Origin: Methanosarcina barkeri str. Wiesmoor | GTDB taxonomy: Archaea > Halobacteriota > Methanosarcinia > Methanosarcinales > Methanosarcinaceae | Reading direction: 5' to 3' | DNA length: 64,000 nucleotides | Assembly: GCF_000969985.1 (NCBI RefSeq) | Contig: NZ_CP009526.1 | Span: 124,001 to 188,000 of the forward strand | In this document: positions 52,143 through 60,235 of the stretch, piece after piece | How positions within the stretch are numbered: position 1 is the first letter of the stretch | How the letters are laid out: every line of letters starts with the position of its first letter | The notes under the pieces: model-generated | The model's database searches: none | Told to the model about the DNA's origin: nothing | Seen by the model: the letters and a program-made list of their open reading frames with translations, nothing else | Position numbers and translations under genes: made by a program

Positions 52143-53420
<1,278 letters not shown>

Positions 53421-53499
53421 GCTGGAAAGCTCGTTCAAAGTAACTGAGAATCACTAAAAACAGGTCGAAGATATTAAAACACTGCATTAAATGGCAAAA

Positions 53500-53785
53500 A
53501 GGAATTGCGATACTGGATGTCAAAAAGAGTTGCAGTACTGAATGGCAAGATGAATTGCAGCTCTGAAAGGCAAAAAGTAGAATGGCAATATTAAATGGCA
53601 AAAAGTAGAATGGCAATATTAAATGGCAAAAAGTAGAATGGCAATGTTGAATGGCAAAAAGTAGAATGGCAATGTTGAATGGCAAAAAATAGAATGGCAA
53701 TATTAAATGGCAAAAAGTAGAATGGCAATGTTGAATGGCAAAAAGTAGAATGGCAATATTGAATGGCAACATTGAATCAAAAACG
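53500..53785. repeat. 28-bp minisatellite between pylS and pylB
   Basis: About seven copies of a unit made of AATGGCAATATTA and AATGGCAAAAAGTAG fill most of the 474-base gap. Two unit variants differ by ATATTA versus ATGTTG. The start of the array is more degenerate, with AATTGC in place of AATGGC. Confidence 0.9.
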
Positions 53786-53894
53786 GGATGGTAAAAACTC
53801 AATATGGCAAAATAAGCTAAATGGTGAGATTAAGTTGACAGTCGGCTCTGATAGGGTCGATAAACATCTGAAGAATCTATGAGAGGGTGAAATT

Positions 53895-54947
53895 TTGATC
53901 CAAAAAATGGCACTTGATGAATTTGATAGTTTGGGAGATAAAGTCATTGAAGGGTATCAATTAACTGATAACGATCTGAGGACTCTTCTTTCCCTTGAAT
54001 CCAAAGAAGGCCTGGAAAGGCTTTATTCCGCAGCCCGAAAAGTAAGAGATCATTATTTTGGCAACAGGGTATTTCTTAATTGTTTCATTTATTTCTCCAC
54101 TTACTGTAAAAATCAATGCTCCTTTTGCTACTATAACTGTCGAAACGAGATCAACCGCTATCGACTGACAATGGAAGAGATAAAAGAAACCTGCAAAACC
54201 CTGAAAGGAGCAGGTTTTCATATGGTTGACCTGACAATGGGGGAAGACCCCTATTACTATGAAGACCCTAACCGTTTCGTTGAACTTGTCCAGATAGTAA
54301 AAGAGGAACTTGGGCTTCCCATTATGATTTCTCCAGGTTTGATGGATAACGCTACTCTTCTTAAAGCCAGGGAAAAAGGAGCAAACTTCCTGGCACTTTA
54401 TCAGGAAACATATGACACTGAACTATACCGGAAACTTAGAGTTGGGCAGTCATTCGATGGGCGTGTCAATGCACGCCGTTTTGCTAAACAGCAGGGGTAC
54501 TGTGTTGAAGATGGAATCCTCACAGGCGTTGGAAATGATATTGAATCAACCATTTTGTCCTTAAGAGGAATGAGTACAAATGATCCTGATATGGTTAGAG
54601 TTATGACCTTTCTCCCCCAGGAAGGAACCCCGCTTGAAGGTTTCAGGGATAAGTCAAATCTCTCGGAACTGAAAATCATCTCGGTTCTCAGATTAATGTT
54701 TCCTAAACGCCTCATCCCTGCTTCTCTTGACCTGGAAGGCATTGACGGCATGGTTCTTCGCTTAAATGCAGGGGCAAATATTGTTACTTCTATTCTTCCT
54801 CCCGATTCCCAACTGGAAGGCGTTGCAAACTACGACCGTGACCTTGAAGAACGAGATCGGGACATAAAAAGTGTGGTCCGAAGGCTTGAAATCATGGGTA
54901 TGAAACCTGCCAGGCAGGCTGACTTTGAGGCAGTTCTGGGGTGCTAA
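53895..54947 (+). CDS. pylB: 3-methylornithine synthase PylB
   Basis: PylB is a radical SAM mutase that rearranges lysine to (3R)-3-methyl-D-ornithine, the first step of pyrrolysine synthesis. The 350-residue protein has the cluster motif Cys71-x3-Cys75-x2-Cys78 in TYCKNQCSFCYYNC. VRVMTFLPQEGTPLEGF and LNAGANIVTSILPP lie in the C-terminal barrel. The start is a TTG at 53895 after GAGAGGGTGA. The last codon is one base before the pylC start, so the genes are tightly coupled. Confidence 0.96.
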   Translation: MIQKMALDEFDSLGDKVIEGYQLTDNDLRTLLSLESKEGLERLYSAARKVRDHYFGNRVFLNCFIYFSTYCKNQCSFCYYNCRNEINRYRLTMEEIKETCKTLKGAGFHMVDLTMGEDPYYYEDPNRFVELVQIVKEELGLPIMISPGLMDNATLLKAREKGANFLALYQETYDTELYRKLRVGQSFDGRVNARRFAKQQGYCVEDGILTGVGNDIESTILSLRGMSTNDPDMVRVMTFLPQEGTPLEGFRDKSNLSELKIISVLRLMFPKRLIPASLDLEGIDGMVLRLNAGANIVTSILPPDSQLEGVANYDRDLEERDRDIKSVVRRLEIMGMKPARQADFEAVLGC

Positions 54948-54948
54948 C

Positions 54949-56040
54949 TTGAAAACGATCTGTCTTGTGGGCGGGAAACTTCAAGGCTTCGAAGCTGCGT
55001 ATCTATCTAAAAAAGCCGGAATGAAAGTAGTTCTGGTAGATAAAAATCCGCAGGCTCTCATCCGTAACTATGCGGATGAATTTTACTGTTTTGATGTGAT
55101 AAAGGAACCCGAAAAACTCCTTGAGCTCTCAAAAAGGGTTGATGCTGTACTTCCTGTAAATGAAAACCTGGCCTGCATCGAATTTCTGAATTCAATAAAA
55201 GAAAAGTTCTCCTGCCCGGTACTTTTCGATTTTGAAGCTTACCGGATAAGCAGGGACAAGAAAAAGTCAAAAGATTATTTTAAGTCCATAGGAGTTCCAA
55301 CTCCGCAGGACAGGCCTTCAAAACCGCCTTATTTTGTAAAACCTCCCTGTGAAAGCAGCAGTGTGGGAGCCAGGATAATTTATGATGACAAAGATCTTGA
55401 GGGCCTTGAACCTGACACGCTGGTTGAGGAATATGTTGAAGGCGAGGTTGTTTCTCTCGAAGTTGTCGGGGACGGAAGTCATTTTGCTGTGGTAAAAGAG
55501 ACCCTTGTCCATATAGACGAAACCTATGACTGCCATATGGTAACTCCGCTTCCTGCTAATCCTTTATTCAGGCAGATCTCCCATGATCTTGCAGCAAATC
55601 TTCCCTTGAAAGGGATTATGGATGTGGAAGCAATCTTCGGTCCAAAAGGGCTCAGGGTAATTGAAATCGATGCCCGTTTCCCAAGTCAGACACCTACAGT
55701 AGTTTACTATTCTTCTGGGATCAACCTGATAGAACTCCTTTTCCGCGCCTTTACTGATGGTGTTGAGGAAATAAGGGCGATTCCCGAGAACAAATACTGC
55801 ATTTACGAGCACCTCATGTTCGGAGAAAATGGTGTTCTTATTCCTGTGGGAGAACAGGTACTTTCCATGGGTAGCGACTATGGAAAATTCTACGAAGAAC
55901 CTGGCATTGAGATTTTTCTTTGCAAAGGAGAATACCCGGTATTTACCATGGTCTTCTGGGGCAAGGACAGGGAAGAAACCGGAGCAAAAAGATGTAAGGG
56001 ACTTTCGGTTCTGAAGGAGCGTTTTGGAGCGGTTTTATGA
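54949..56040 (+). CDS. pylC: 3-methylornithine--L-lysine ligase PylC
   Basis: PylC is an ATP-grasp ligase that joins 3-methylornithine to the epsilon-amino group of a second lysine. Starting at the TTG at 54949, one base after the pylB stop, the protein has 363 residues, the known length. It begins with a Rossmann segment, ICLVGGKLQGFEAAYLSKKA. ATP-grasp motifs are KPPYFVKPPCESSSVGARI, DTLVEEYVEGEVVSLEVV and GIMDVEAIFGPKGLRVIEID. The C-terminal 76 residues from CIYEHLMFGENG recur, diverged, in the next gene. Confidence 0.96.
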   Translation: MKTICLVGGKLQGFEAAYLSKKAGMKVVLVDKNPQALIRNYADEFYCFDVIKEPEKLLELSKRVDAVLPVNENLACIEFLNSIKEKFSCPVLFDFEAYRISRDKKKSKDYFKSIGVPTPQDRPSKPPYFVKPPCESSSVGARIIYDDKDLEGLEPDTLVEEYVEGEVVSLEVVGDGSHFAVVKETLVHIDETYDCHMVTPLPANPLFRQISHDLAANLPLKGIMDVEAIFGPKGLRVIEIDARFPSQTPTVVYYSSGINLIELLFRAFTDGVEEIRAIPENKYCIYEHLMFGENGVLIPVGEQVLSMGSDYGKFYEEPGIEIFLCKGEYPVFTMVFWGKDREETGAKRCKGLSVLKERFGAVL

Positions 56041-56119
56041 CGGAATAAAAAAGAACCAAAAGGGTATTAAAATGGATTAAATAAACTAGAATTACTCAAA
56101 GCAGGAAATGGAGATCAAT

Positions 56120-56503
56120 ATGGAACTAACCTCAGATGATTCGACAAATATTGACAAGCAGTCTCAGGAAGCAGATTCTGCTTTGCAGAGAACAGGGCTT
56201 GACGTAAAAGAAATCTGCGAAAAATGCTGTATTTACGAGCATTTTATGCTAGAAAAAAAAGGGGATCTTGTTCCTGTGGGAGAACAGGCTCTTTCCAAGG
56301 ACGATGAATGCGAGAAATTCTATGAAGAGCCAGGCATTAAAATTTTACTTTACAGAGGAGAGAATCCGGTATTTGCTTTGATTTCCTGTGGCAAGGATGA
56401 GGAAGAAGCTGAGGCAAAAAAAAGTAAAGGCTTTTCAGTTCTGAAGGAGCGGTTGAGTGAAGGAATAAATTCGAGTACTGGAACAGAAATTGAAAATGAT
56501 TGA
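56120..56503 (+). CDS. Chimeric gene: PylD-like N-terminus joined to PylC-like C-terminus
   Basis: The 127-residue product starts ELTSDDSTNIDKQSQEADSA and LQRTGLDVKEIC. This aligns with PylD ALLTPDDLININMQLQKADS and AVQEVTGLDIKGIC. It then switches to CIYEHFMLEKKGDLVPVGEQ and KFYEEPGIKILLYRGENPVF, aligning with the PylC C-terminus (45 of 76 residues identical by hand count). The sequence before the ATG (GCAGGAAATGGAGAT) matches that before pylD. An upstream in-frame ATG at 56108 is less likely. It lacks the ATP-grasp site and the dehydrogenase domain, so it cannot be an enzyme of either type. The frame is intact. Confidence 0.8.
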   Translation: MELTSDDSTNIDKQSQEADSALQRTGLDVKEICEKCCIYEHFMLEKKGDLVPVGEQALSKDDECEKFYEEPGIKILLYRGENPVFALISCGKDEEEAEAKKSKGFSVLKERLSEGINSSTGTEIEND

Positions 56504-56645
56504 AGAGATTAAGATTCTTTAAACCTAAGTTTTAAAGAGTCTAAGTTTTTAAAGATATTAAAATTCTAAAACTCAGTTAAAGTAACTGAGATTCAAAAAA
56601 TCCAGATTTAAAAATCTAAGGTTTAAATTTTCCTAAAAACAGGAA
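56504..56645 (+). other. AT-rich spacer before pylD
   Basis: Short related stretches (TCTAAGTTTTTAAAGA, CCTAAGTTTTAAAGAG, ATCTAAGGTTTAAATT) suggest local expansion. The spacer before the chimeric gene is shorter and different. No terminator was seen, so transcription may continue into pylD. Confidence 0.4.
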
Positions 56646-56657
56646 ATGGCGATAAAA

Positions 56658-57437
56658 ATGGCACTCTTAACTCCCGATGATTTGATAAACATTAATATGC
56701 AACTTCAGAAAGCTGACTCTGCTGTGCAAGAAGTAACGGGGCTTGATATAAAAGGTATTTGCAAGGCTCTCTACGGTACTTTCTCGAGCTCCGAAAAAGT
56801 AGGCATCGTGCCTGTAACTTCGGGAAACGGAATTATAGGAAACTTTTCGGCTTCCCTGCATGCAATTACGCAGTATTTCGGATTTGACAGTTTTGTTACG
56901 GATATGCCGGATGTTAGCGGCTATTATGAAGCTGTGCAGAACGGAGCCGAGATCATCCTTATGGCAGACGACCGCACTTTCCTTGCCCATAACCTCAAAA
57001 ATGGAAAAATGGCCAATAATCAACCCTGCACAGGTATTATCTATGCTGAGATCGCTTCCAGATATCTGAAAGCCGACTCAAAGGATGTACTTGTTGTGGG
57101 GCTTGGGAAAGTAGGTTTCCCCGGAGCCGAGCATTTAGTGCAGAAAGACTTTAGGGTTTACGGGTATGATGCTGATGAAACTCTCCTTGAGAGAGCCACT
57201 TCAAACCTCGGGATTATTCCTTTCGACCCTGCGAATCCGAAAAAATTTTCCATTATATTCGAGGCGACTCCATGCGCAAACACGATTCCTGAAGCCGTAC
57301 TTTCGGAGAATTGCGTGCTTTCCACTCCTGGAATCCCCTGCGCAATTTCTGAAGAGCTTAGAGATAAATACGAAGTACAACTTATAGCGGAACCCCTTGG
57401 AATAGGAACTGCATCAATGTTGTACTCTGTGCTATAA
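56658..57437 (+). CDS. pylD: Pyrrolysine dehydrogenase PylD
   Basis: PylD oxidises the product of PylC with NAD+ so that it cyclises to pyrrolysine. The ATG at 56658 gives the known 259 residues (MALLTPDDLININMQLQKAD); an in-frame ATG four codons earlier lies in the ribosome-binding region. The C-terminal Rossmann domain starts at VLVVGLGKVGFPGAEHLVQK with the GxGxxG fingerprint. PCTGIIYAEIASRY lies before it. It is the last gene of pylTSBCD. Confidence 0.96.
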   Translation: MALLTPDDLININMQLQKADSAVQEVTGLDIKGICKALYGTFSSSEKVGIVPVTSGNGIIGNFSASLHAITQYFGFDSFVTDMPDVSGYYEAVQNGAEIILMADDRTFLAHNLKNGKMANNQPCTGIIYAEIASRYLKADSKDVLVVGLGKVGFPGAEHLVQKDFRVYGYDADETLLERATSNLGIIPFDPANPKKFSIIFEATPCANTIPEAVLSENCVLSTPGIPCAISEELRDKYEVQLIAEPLGIGTASMLYSVL

Positions 57438-57794: not shown

Positions 57795-58364
57795 ATGAAC
57801 GAGACTAATCAGCAAATACTTTATTATGCAAGGAATTTTTTGCAATGTCGGGGTTATAATGGATTTAGTTACAAAGATATTTCTCAGAAATTGGGAATAA
57901 AGAATGCAGCAATTCATAATTATTACCCCAAAAAAGAAGATCTAGTTGCAGCTTTGCTCGAAAACAGCAGAAAGAATTTAGCTGCAAATATTACTCAAAT
58001 AGTGGAATCTGGAGGCTCAGCCCGTGATCAGCTTCAATACTACTTTGATTACGCATTGAAGGAGTTTGATGAAGGTAAAAGTATCTGCCCCCCAGGCTCG
58101 GTAATTCTCGATTTTGAAAAACTTCCGGAGAAAGTTAAAAAACAAAACCTTTTGTTGATGGATGATATCCTGGCCTGGATTTCCAGAGTTCTTAAAATAG
58201 GTCTGGAACAGGGGGAGTTTAATTTCTCTGGTTCTGTAGAAGCACGTGCAGAATTAGTAGTTGAAGCCTTGATGGGTGCCAGACAATTATCCAGTATAAG
58301 AGGAAGAAAAACGCTTGTTAGATCTATTTCTCTAATTAAATCCGACCTTGGGTGGAAGGACTGA
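57795..58364 (+). CDS. TetR/AcrR-family transcriptional regulator
   Basis: The 189-residue protein has a TetR helix-turn-helix at residues about 25-50 (NGFSYKDISQKLGIKNAAIH, then NYYPKKEDLVAALLEN). A helical ligand-binding domain follows. The identical palindromes on either side of the gene imply that it controls itself and the two DUF1638 genes downstream. TetR proteins are less common in archaea, and the closest look-alikes are bacterial, so transfer is possible. The ligand is unknown. Confidence 0.88.
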   Translation: MNETNQQILYYARNFLQCRGYNGFSYKDISQKLGIKNAAIHNYYPKKEDLVAALLENSRKNLAANITQIVESGGSARDQLQYYFDYALKEFDEGKSICPPGSVILDFEKLPEKVKKQNLLLMDDILAWISRVLKIGLEQGEFNFSGSVEARAELVVEALMGARQLSSIRGRKTLVRSISLIKSDLGWKD

Positions 58365-58379
58365 TGTTTTCTTAATCGC

Positions 58380-58403
58380 TACTTACTTATATGTAAGTAA
58401 GTA
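58380..58403. promoter_or_regulatory. Palindromic TetR operator, downstream copy
   Basis: This is identical to the palindrome at 57680-57703 over at least 30 bases. It lies 15 bases past the TetR stop and about 90 bases before the first DUF1638 gene, with AT-rich promoter-like sequence following. Confidence 0.75.
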
Positions 58404-58491
58404 TATTCTATTATTATAATCGATATATTGCTGAATCAATCTATTGCTAAAAAATTAGGTTTTCTGGCATAACTTCTGTGGAGAGACTTCA

Positions 58492-59289
58492 ATGCCCACT
58501 ATGAGTATTATTTCGTGCAAGATAATGCAGGACGAAATCATCTGGATTCTTGAAAATGACTCTTCCATTGATGAGATTTTCGTAGTTGATAATGAAAATA
58601 TCCGGGAATTTGTAGAAAAGCTGGATAAAGTAAACCTTCAGTATAAAGTGCTCTCTCTGGAAGACATTTCCTCACTTCCCGAAATCAAAAGCGAATGCAA
58701 GAAATACACGGTTTTGATCCATCTGATGGAACTTGGCCTTCATAGAAGTCCTAAGGAGTTGAAAATTAAGGTATATGAGACTATAAAGACTCTCGCTCCT
58801 TTTTCATCGGGGATTTTGCTCTTTTACGGTTTATGTGGAAATGTACTGGGGAACGTTGAAAAAGATTTCCAATGTAGTTCAATCTCATGTCCGGTTCGTA
58901 TTCTCAAAGATAAAGATCACAGAATTGTAGATGACTGCATAGGGGCTACTGTGGGAGGAGTCAAAAACTATCTAAGGATACTCAAAAGTGTTAGTGATGC
59001 TGGAACATATCTTTTTACTCCCATGTACAGCAAGGGCTGGAAGGAACTACTTGACCTGAATAAGCTAAATAAAGACCCTGCTAAAGCATTGAAATTAATG
59101 AAAAAGACCCACGAAATGATTGGTTACAAAAGAGTTGCTAAGATTAATACTGGTCTTAAATACACTGAAAATTTCGACGCTTCTATTCAGGAATTTGCAG
59201 ATTTGTTTGATTTCGAAATTTTGGAATTCGATGATGGTAATCAGGAAATTTTTAAAGATTGCTATAACGAACTCAAAATGGAGATTTAG
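58492..59289 (+). CDS. DUF1638-family protein, first copy
   Basis: The 265-residue protein opens TMSIISCKIMQDEIIWILEN and has the family core SGILLFYGLCGNVLGNVEKD, RIVDDCIGATVGGVKNY and YLFTPMYSKGWKELL. Cysteines in CGN and DDC are conserved in the second copy, suggesting a metal or cofactor site. DUF1638 genes often sit beside methylamine-type methyltransferases and corrinoid proteins, but the function is not known. The stop is TAG at 59287, which is rare here, with a TGA six codons further on. GGAGAG precedes the ATG. Confidence 0.85.
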   Translation: MPTMSIISCKIMQDEIIWILENDSSIDEIFVVDNENIREFVEKLDKVNLQYKVLSLEDISSLPEIKSECKKYTVLIHLMELGLHRSPKELKIKVYETIKTLAPFSSGILLFYGLCGNVLGNVEKDFQCSSISCPVRILKDKDHRIVDDCIGATVGGVKNYLRILKSVSDAGTYLFTPMYSKGWKELLDLNKLNKDPAKALKLMKKTHEMIGYKRVAKINTGLKYTENFDASIQEFADLFDFEILEFDDGNQEIFKDCYNELKMEI

Positions 59290-59341
59290 GAAAAATCAAA
59301 ACGTTGAAAAAATTTTATATTTATAGATGACTGGTGAGCGG

Positions 59342-60235
59342 ATGCCTGTACTTAGCATAATTGCCTGTGAAATGCTTGAAGACGAACTGGCATATGTCCT
59401 CTCAGAAGACCACGACTTAAATCAATTGATTGTAGTTGAAAACAGGCAAAGTTTCAGGTTTGTTCGAAAGCTTAAATCCAGAAATTGCCAGCCAAGACTT
59501 TTTCCTTTGGACAAAGTACCTATTTTTTTAAAAGAGGCAAATAACTCTGTATACAACTCTGTATCTGTGAATCTTTTGAAACTTTTATTGAAATTTCCTT
59601 TTTTTAAGAAACTAACTCCTAATATCAGAGGAAAGAGTAAAGAAAAGAACAAGGAAAAGCCTATTGTAGTTGTAAATACTCTGAAGCTTGGCCTACATGC
59701 AGATTGCCAACTCTTAAGGTCTGAAATCTACCAAAATATTAGTAAAATGGCAGCTTTTTCAGATGGTATTCTTATTTTCTATGGAAACTGTGGTCACTCT
59801 TTAAGGAACACAGAAGCTGATTTTAAAGATCTTCCTTGCTCTCTTTATTTTCTTAAAGATGAAAAAGGAGAGATTGTGGATGACTGCATCAGCGTAGCTC
59901 TTGGGGGCAACGATACTTATGCCAAAGTTATGCAGAGTGGGAGCGGTACGGGTATGATATACCTGACTCCCATGTGGGCTTCCAGTTGGAAACAAATGAG
60001 AATGGAATCTAACGACACTTCTGACTTCAATGATAACTTCTTGAAAAAGCATTACCGAAAGGTTGTCAAAATCAGTAATGAGATTTCTATGGGAAGTGAA
60101 TTCGATAAAAATGTCTTAAATTATGCCAGGACTTTTAATATGAGCATTGCTGAAATGGAAGAAAGTATGAAGGTAGCAAGTAAGTCCTATCTAAATGCCA
60201 AAAACGACGTCTGCAAGAAAGCAGTATCAGATTAA
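59342..60235 (+). CDS. DUF1638-family protein, second copy
   Basis: The ATG at 59342 after GGTGAGCGG gives 297 residues beginning MPVLSIIACEMLEDELAYVL. It aligns with the first copy (GILIFYGNCGHSLRNTEADF, EIVDDCISVALGGNDTY, IYLTPMWASSWKQM). It carries an extra 35-40 residue hydrophobic/basic segment near residue 75 (LLKLLLKFPFFKKLTPNIRG). The two genes are 52 bases apart and likely form one TetR-controlled transcript. Paralogs acting as a heterodimer is one possibility. Confidence 0.83.
   Translation: MPVLSIIACEMLEDELAYVLSEDHDLNQLIVVENRQSFRFVRKLKSRNCQPRLFPLDKVPIFLKEANNSVYNSVSVNLLKLLLKFPFFKKLTPNIRGKSKEKNKEKPIVVVNTLKLGLHADCQLLRSEIYQNISKMAAFSDGILIFYGNCGHSLRNTEADFKDLPCSLYFLKDEKGEIVDDCISVALGGNDTYAKVMQSGSGTGMIYLTPMWASSWKQMRMESNDTSDFNDNFLKKHYRKVVKISNEISMGSEFDKNVLNYARTFNMSIAEMEESMKVASKSYLNAKNDVCKKAVSD

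Follow-up and report, generated by a model that had tools for sequence, protein, structure and literature searches.

A chimeric gene in the pyl locus of Methanosarcina barkeri

The window, a 64,000-nucleotide stretch of the genome of Methanosarcina barkeri str. Wiesmoor (contig NZ_CP009526.1, positions 124,001–188,000), contains the genes pylS (52161–53420), pylB (53895–54947), pylC (54949–56040), and pylD (56658–57437), all on the forward strand. The pyl operon, described as pylTSBCD, is among the gene sets most used in synthetic biology. In the window, an additional gene of 127 codons, ending in the stop codon TGA, is located between pylC and pylD (56120–56503, forward strand). It is separated from pylC by a 79-nucleotide spacer (spacer 1, 56041–56119) and from pylD by a 154-nucleotide spacer (spacer 2, 56504–56657). 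The additional frame is coded in the orientation of the pyl operon and no interruption was found in it, in agreement with the preliminary description of the locus. The 363-residue-long PylC encoded in the window is identical to the protein of PDB entry 4FFL and belongs to NCBIfam family TIGR03909, and the 259-residue-long PylD is identical to that of PDB entry 4J43 and belongs to TIGR03911. The structures of the 4FFL and 4J43 series are given as those of M. barkeri enzymes (PMC8225853). The extra reading frame therefore lies inside the pyl operon of a species that encodes the very PylC and PylD that were crystallised.

The additional gene is a chimera of parts of its two neighbours. Its 5′ part (56120–56218, residues 1–33) is derived from pylD; together with the ribosome-binding region in front of it, it aligns with pylD and the sequence upstream of pylD with 97 of 133 nucleotides identical (BLASTN, E = 5e-16). 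The 3′ part (56222–56454, residues 35–112) is derived from pylC and corresponds to the whole C-terminal domain of PylC (PylC residues 281–359); it matches the 3′ region of pylC (55792–56024) without gaps in 175 of 233 nucleotides (BLASTN, E = 5e-43). The nucleotide identity to the parent genes is 73% in the D half and 75% in the C half. Within the first 33 residues of the protein, 20 of the 32 aligned with PylD are identical, as counted from the alignment, and a protein alignment of residues 35 to about 112 with the C-terminal domain of PylC contains 46 identities in 77 positions. The preliminary description had claimed a start about 60% identical to PylD over some 35 residues, an upstream region resembling the ribosome-binding region of pylD, and an end identical to PylC in 45 of 76 residues. 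The first two claims hold, and so does the last for the domain itself; it does not extend to the final 16 or so residues (C-terminal tail, residues 112–127, 56455–56500), which are unlike PylC. Predicted peptides of the chimera include FYEEPGIK, ILLYR, and GENPVFALISCGK, of which FYEEPGIK is specific to the chimera because PylC reads FYEEPGIEIFL.

The chimera has no match in Pfam, whereas the N-terminal and ATP-grasp domains (PF21360 and PF02655) were both found in the pylC of the window. Searches of Pfam and NCBIfam gave no match of the chimera to PylD_N (PF21455) or to the NAD-binding domain, and its homology to PylD is limited to residues 1–33. The model of TIGR03909 is matched with 61 bits at positions 291–374 only, and the family cut-off is 248 bits. 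The ATP-grasp domain and the NAD-binding domain, and with them the active sites of both parents, are missing from the chimera, as had been stated initially.

Several other features of the locus were recorded. The spacer between pylS and pylB is filled by a 28-bp tandem repeat with the unit TGAATGGCAAAAAGTAGAATGGCAATAT, present in 7–10 copies (53490–53797). Sequence resembling this repeat, of variable length, occurs in 17 of 31 Methanosarcina genomes, and in many of these 17 it is near pyl genes by coordinate. A 38-nucleotide direct repeat (76% identity) with AAAGTAACTGAGA is found at 53426–53463 after pylS and at 56568–56605 before pylD. The region 57795–60235 contains a gene for a TetR-like regulator followed by two adjoining open reading frames of 265 and 302 residues, which by eye appear to be paralogues of each other.

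Distribution and origin of the chimera

Among 31 Methanosarcina genomes, 26 contain matches to pylC, and mostly also to pylD, and the fusion is present in two of them: the window genome and that of a second species, Methanosarcina sp. UBA5 (G014, contig NZ_DAVG01000121). The orthologue from UBA5 has the same fusion junction, ..TGC GAA AAA TGC TGT ATT.. (56219–56227 in the window). A scan of the Methanosarcina genomes for the junction sequence found it nowhere beyond these two species. Among 112 Methanosarcinaceae genomes and the contigs of GTDB r220, no fusion other than that of UBA5 was found. Relative to the UBA5 orthologue, the PylD-derived part of the window gene has lost two codons in frame. 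The two proteins also differ at their C-termini, which are not conserved: the position of the PylC stop codon is kept in UBA5, and of the two species only that of the window has a 10-nucleotide deletion, located between GGAGCG repeats, which shifted the frame into the former 3′ spacer and thereby produced the tail unlike that of PylC.

The alignments show that the chimeric gene was created by a single tandem duplication of roughly 0.4–0.5 kb, because both halves align with their parents and spacer 1 is a copy of the spacer of pylD. The duplicated unit extends from about codon 281 of pylC through the spacer to about codon 35 of pylD. At its junction, a tandem duplication places the start of the downstream gene before the end of the upstream gene, which is the order seen here, and the intact parents flank the fusion on both sides. 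The duplication of the spacer between the parents is strongly visible in UBA5, where spacers 1 and 2 align with a local score of 63, about 8 standard deviations above shuffled sequences, and where the alignment starts immediately behind the stop codon in both. It is weaker in the window species, with a score of 41 (z 3.4–3.6). The pylC–pylD spacer of the closest relatives resembles spacer 2, which is the orthologue of the spacer in chimera-free genomes; spacer 1, aligned with spacer 2 and with the spacers of relatives, is its diverged copy. A tandem-duplication origin had been proposed from the order of the parts, and the nucleotide alignments to pylC and pylD bear it out, with the copy of the spacer as an addition to the original argument.

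The duplication dates back to the ancestor of a subgroup of Methanosarcina. A tree of mcrA and rpoB has the topology (G012,(G014,((G028,G004,G026),(G030,(G003,window))))); some of its nodes are moderately supported, and the order of pylC and pylD agrees with it within the group. In topology tests, both halves fit a branching of the chimera shortly before the crown, or one that also precedes G012. An origin of both chimeras from the genes of the window lineage was rejected (approximately unbiased (AU) test, p = 0.0003 for the C half and p = 0.016 for the D half; the AU values given here rest on 5000 resamplings, flagged as low by the program). Since there was one origin and yet the fusion is found only in UBA5 and the window species, it has been lost at least three times (in G003, in G030, and in the lineage of G004, G026, and G028), including from the closest relatives of the window species. 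The patchy distribution would require fewer losses if the duplication had occurred twice independently or if the chimera had been transferred from one lineage to the other. However, an independent origin of each chimera from the parents in its own genome is rejected (AU p = 0.0006 for the C half and p = 0.013 for the D half), and the junction is identical in the two species. The synonymous divergence between the chimeras is about 0.3–0.5, depending on the method; between the parent genes of the same two species it is about 0.5–0.7, so that the chimeras are about equally or slightly less diverged, as vertical descent predicts. Independent origin or transfer is therefore highly improbable. The topology tests thus uphold the one old event of the preliminary description, but not its view that both halves have diverged to a similar degree: the D half is now diverging faster.

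The probable ribosome-binding site of the chimera, identified by direct reading of the sequence and by comparison of 26 genomes, is GGAGAT (56110–56115). This motif is present in both chimeras and in the pylD of more distant species, whereas the pylD genes of the M. barkeri clade, including G012, have GGCGAT before their start codons (56648–56653 in the window). The retention of GGAGAT in both chimeras is a small additional sign of the age of the gene. The difference between the motifs also means that the chimera may have a better ribosome-binding site than pylD.

Selection on the chimera

Selection was analysed in a combined alignment of 111 codons of the D and C halves, with the parent genes trimmed to the same codons; the tests rest on two orthologues and short sequences. 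In a branch model, the dN/dS of the chimera branches is 0.447, compared with 0.161 for the parents. Equality with the parents was rejected (2dlnL 11.0), as was neutrality with a dN/dS of 1.0 (2dlnL 9.3), a value that was reached in none of 60 null simulations. The tip branches of the C half alone have a dN/dS of 0.34 (2dlnL against neutrality 8.2; 0 of 60 simulations), and its stem about 0.87. By contrast, the tips of the D half alone have values of 0.63–0.69, for which neutrality was not rejected. An alternative placement in the tree left the dN/dS values unchanged. Both indels inside the conserved part comprise whole codons, and the third, the frame-shifting one of 10 nucleotides, is at the very end of the gene in the window species. 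Purifying selection on the chimera is thus relaxed but real. It is weak and acts mainly on the PylC-derived domain, because the C-half tips are constrained, the D half is nearly neutral, and the indels of the conserved part spare the frame. Gene conversion was rejected as the cause of the low dN/dS: in a site-pattern screen of both chimera-bearing genomes, no site in either supports conversion by the genome's own parent only, although short tracts are possible.

The chimera is found in few species, has been lost several times, and is shorter than pylC and pylD, as would befit a purely neutral relic that is open by luck. However, a dN/dS of 1 is rejected with either placement in the tree, as well as in a parametric bootstrap, and in neutral simulations with substitutions only the frame stayed open in both lineages in just 1.4–8.6% of runs (probability 0.014–0.086). 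Such a relic is therefore very unlikely. The preliminary description had regarded a dN/dS near 1, together with absence from all other genomes, as the mark of a neutral relic; the value of 0.45 is well below 1, and the open frame is conserved between the two orthologues.

It is also conceivable that the chimera is a translated spacer, in which the passage of ribosomes protects the transcript or prevents termination, securing the expression of pylD, and the amino acids are irrelevant. The gene is positioned suitably: it has the orientation of pylC and pylD, which flank it, and a ribosome-binding site of its own. In addition, spacer 2 (56504–56657) folds better than shuffled sequences in the window species (z −3.2). 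However, if the frame were a translated spacer, its dN/dS should be near 1 in the D as well as the C half, which is rejected for the latter, and the pylD genes of relatives are located behind spacers of 27–221 nucleotides that lack the chimera. Furthermore, the folding of spacer 2 is no better than chance in UBA5 and in the chimera-free G028. We therefore consider a translated spacer improbable. Spacer 2 of the window species contains a perfect hairpin, CTCAGTTA-aag-TAACTGAG, and a long AT-rich stem; a structured RNA in this spacer is unsupported by the two relatives.

Predicted structure of the chimera

The C half of the chimera was predicted by AlphaFold2 with a pLDDT of about 77–89 and contains five strands (residues 36–44, 50–53, 63–70, 73–79, and 84–91) and a helix (residues 94–116), whereas the PylD-derived part is a low-confidence helix. 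The only significant match in a Foldseek search is PylC (4FFL, E = 9.5e-7), with an rmsd of 1.7 Å over 75 columns and 60% identity. The C half is therefore predicted to keep the fold of the PylC C-terminal domain. The AlphaFold model of full-length PylC is poor (pLDDT 54), and only its terminal domains were used. The fusion junction coincides with the first strand of the PylC C-terminal domain (PylC residues 284–292); the duplication therefore took along a complete structural domain. Some 32 residues are invariant in PylC throughout the genus, and the C half of the chimera differs at about 10 of them. Residues altered in both chimeras include changes of M to K, Y to C, G to E, C to Y, and F to S. 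Such changes are expected for a domain freed from its contacts with the rest of PylC.

Possible roles of the chimera

The chimera is a real, old, and dispensable gene. The duplication yielded a gene for a free-standing PylC C-terminal domain led by an N-terminal peptide of PylD. Our tentative preference is for a non-catalytic accessory domain acting on PylC, which may be translated from the pyl transcript through its own ribosome-binding site. The protein could then dock where the C-terminal domain of PylC itself normally docks, and thereby tune or stabilise PylC, or the encounter of PylC with PylD, in the synthesis of pyrrolysine. We infer the translation and the accessory role of the chimera from the constraint on the C half, the open frames, the predicted intact fold, and the retained GGAGAT; counted against a role of the protein are the losses, the altered invariant residues, the nearly neutral D half, and the unconserved C-terminus.

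It is almost as likely that the chimera is a slowly decaying by-product, still translated in the pyl operon and selected only against a misfolded or sticky product, with no job of its own. The preliminary description had likewise offered two readings, a regulatory or assembly factor that binds PylC or PylD and a by-product in slow decay. A good ribosome-binding site and the position in the operon explain its continued translation. At least three losses, the frame-shifted C-terminus in the window species, and the loss of many PylC-invariant residues all agree with decay. So does the dN/dS, which exceeds that of the parents about threefold and is close to 1 in the D half and 0.87 along the C-half stem. 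By contrast, the C-half tips stay at 0.34, the fold is predicted to be intact, and in the absence of any selection the frame would be unlikely to have stayed open along two long branches.

The chimera may also be a new protein-coding subunit of the pathway in a few Methanosarcina species, composed of the PylC C-terminal domain and a PylD lead peptide and binding PylC, PylD, or both, which we consider rather doubtful. It would modulate the ligation of 3-methylornithine to lysine or the hand-over of the product to PylD. In Escherichia coli, the pylTSBCD genes of M. acetivorans are sufficient with no chimera present (PMC11467909). Involvement in the core chemistry is therefore unlikely, as close relatives also lack the gene.

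Comparison with known systems

No mention of the chimeric gene was found in the open-licence literature searched, in line with the preliminary description, whose author knew of none; the gene is thus new to that literature, whereas the process, formation of a chimeric gene where the copies of a tandem duplication meet, is already well known. The case is an unusually clear and datable birth of a chimeric gene within an archaeal operon: its two parents still lie next to it, one orthologue has survived, the losses could be mapped, and the change in selection can be measured. It bears on whether a by-product of duplication turns into a functional component of the pathway from which it arose.

Residues 35–112 of the chimera are homologous to the C-terminal domain of PylC, the 3-methylornithine–L-lysine ligase (TIGR03909; 4FFL). 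Because it lacks the N-terminal and ATP-grasp domains of PylC, the chimera alone cannot be a ligase. With PylD, the pyrrolysine synthase (TIGR03911; PF21455; 4J43), it shares the start region, the ribosome-binding region, and residues 1–33, but little of the N-terminal domain of PylD and none of its NAD-binding domain is present. Methanomassiliicoccus luminyensis carries extra copies of pyl genes (PMC3941956); its Pyl system has been duplicated too, but as whole clusters and a whole pylC, with no fusion of parts. Chimeric genes made by tandem duplications across gene boundaries are well described in Drosophila (PMC5460883). They have the same junction of a downstream 5′ end with an upstream 3′ end, and both parents remain intact. 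Unlike the Drosophila cases, the chimera described here is archaeal, lies inside one biosynthetic operon, and joins parts of two consecutive enzymes of one pathway.
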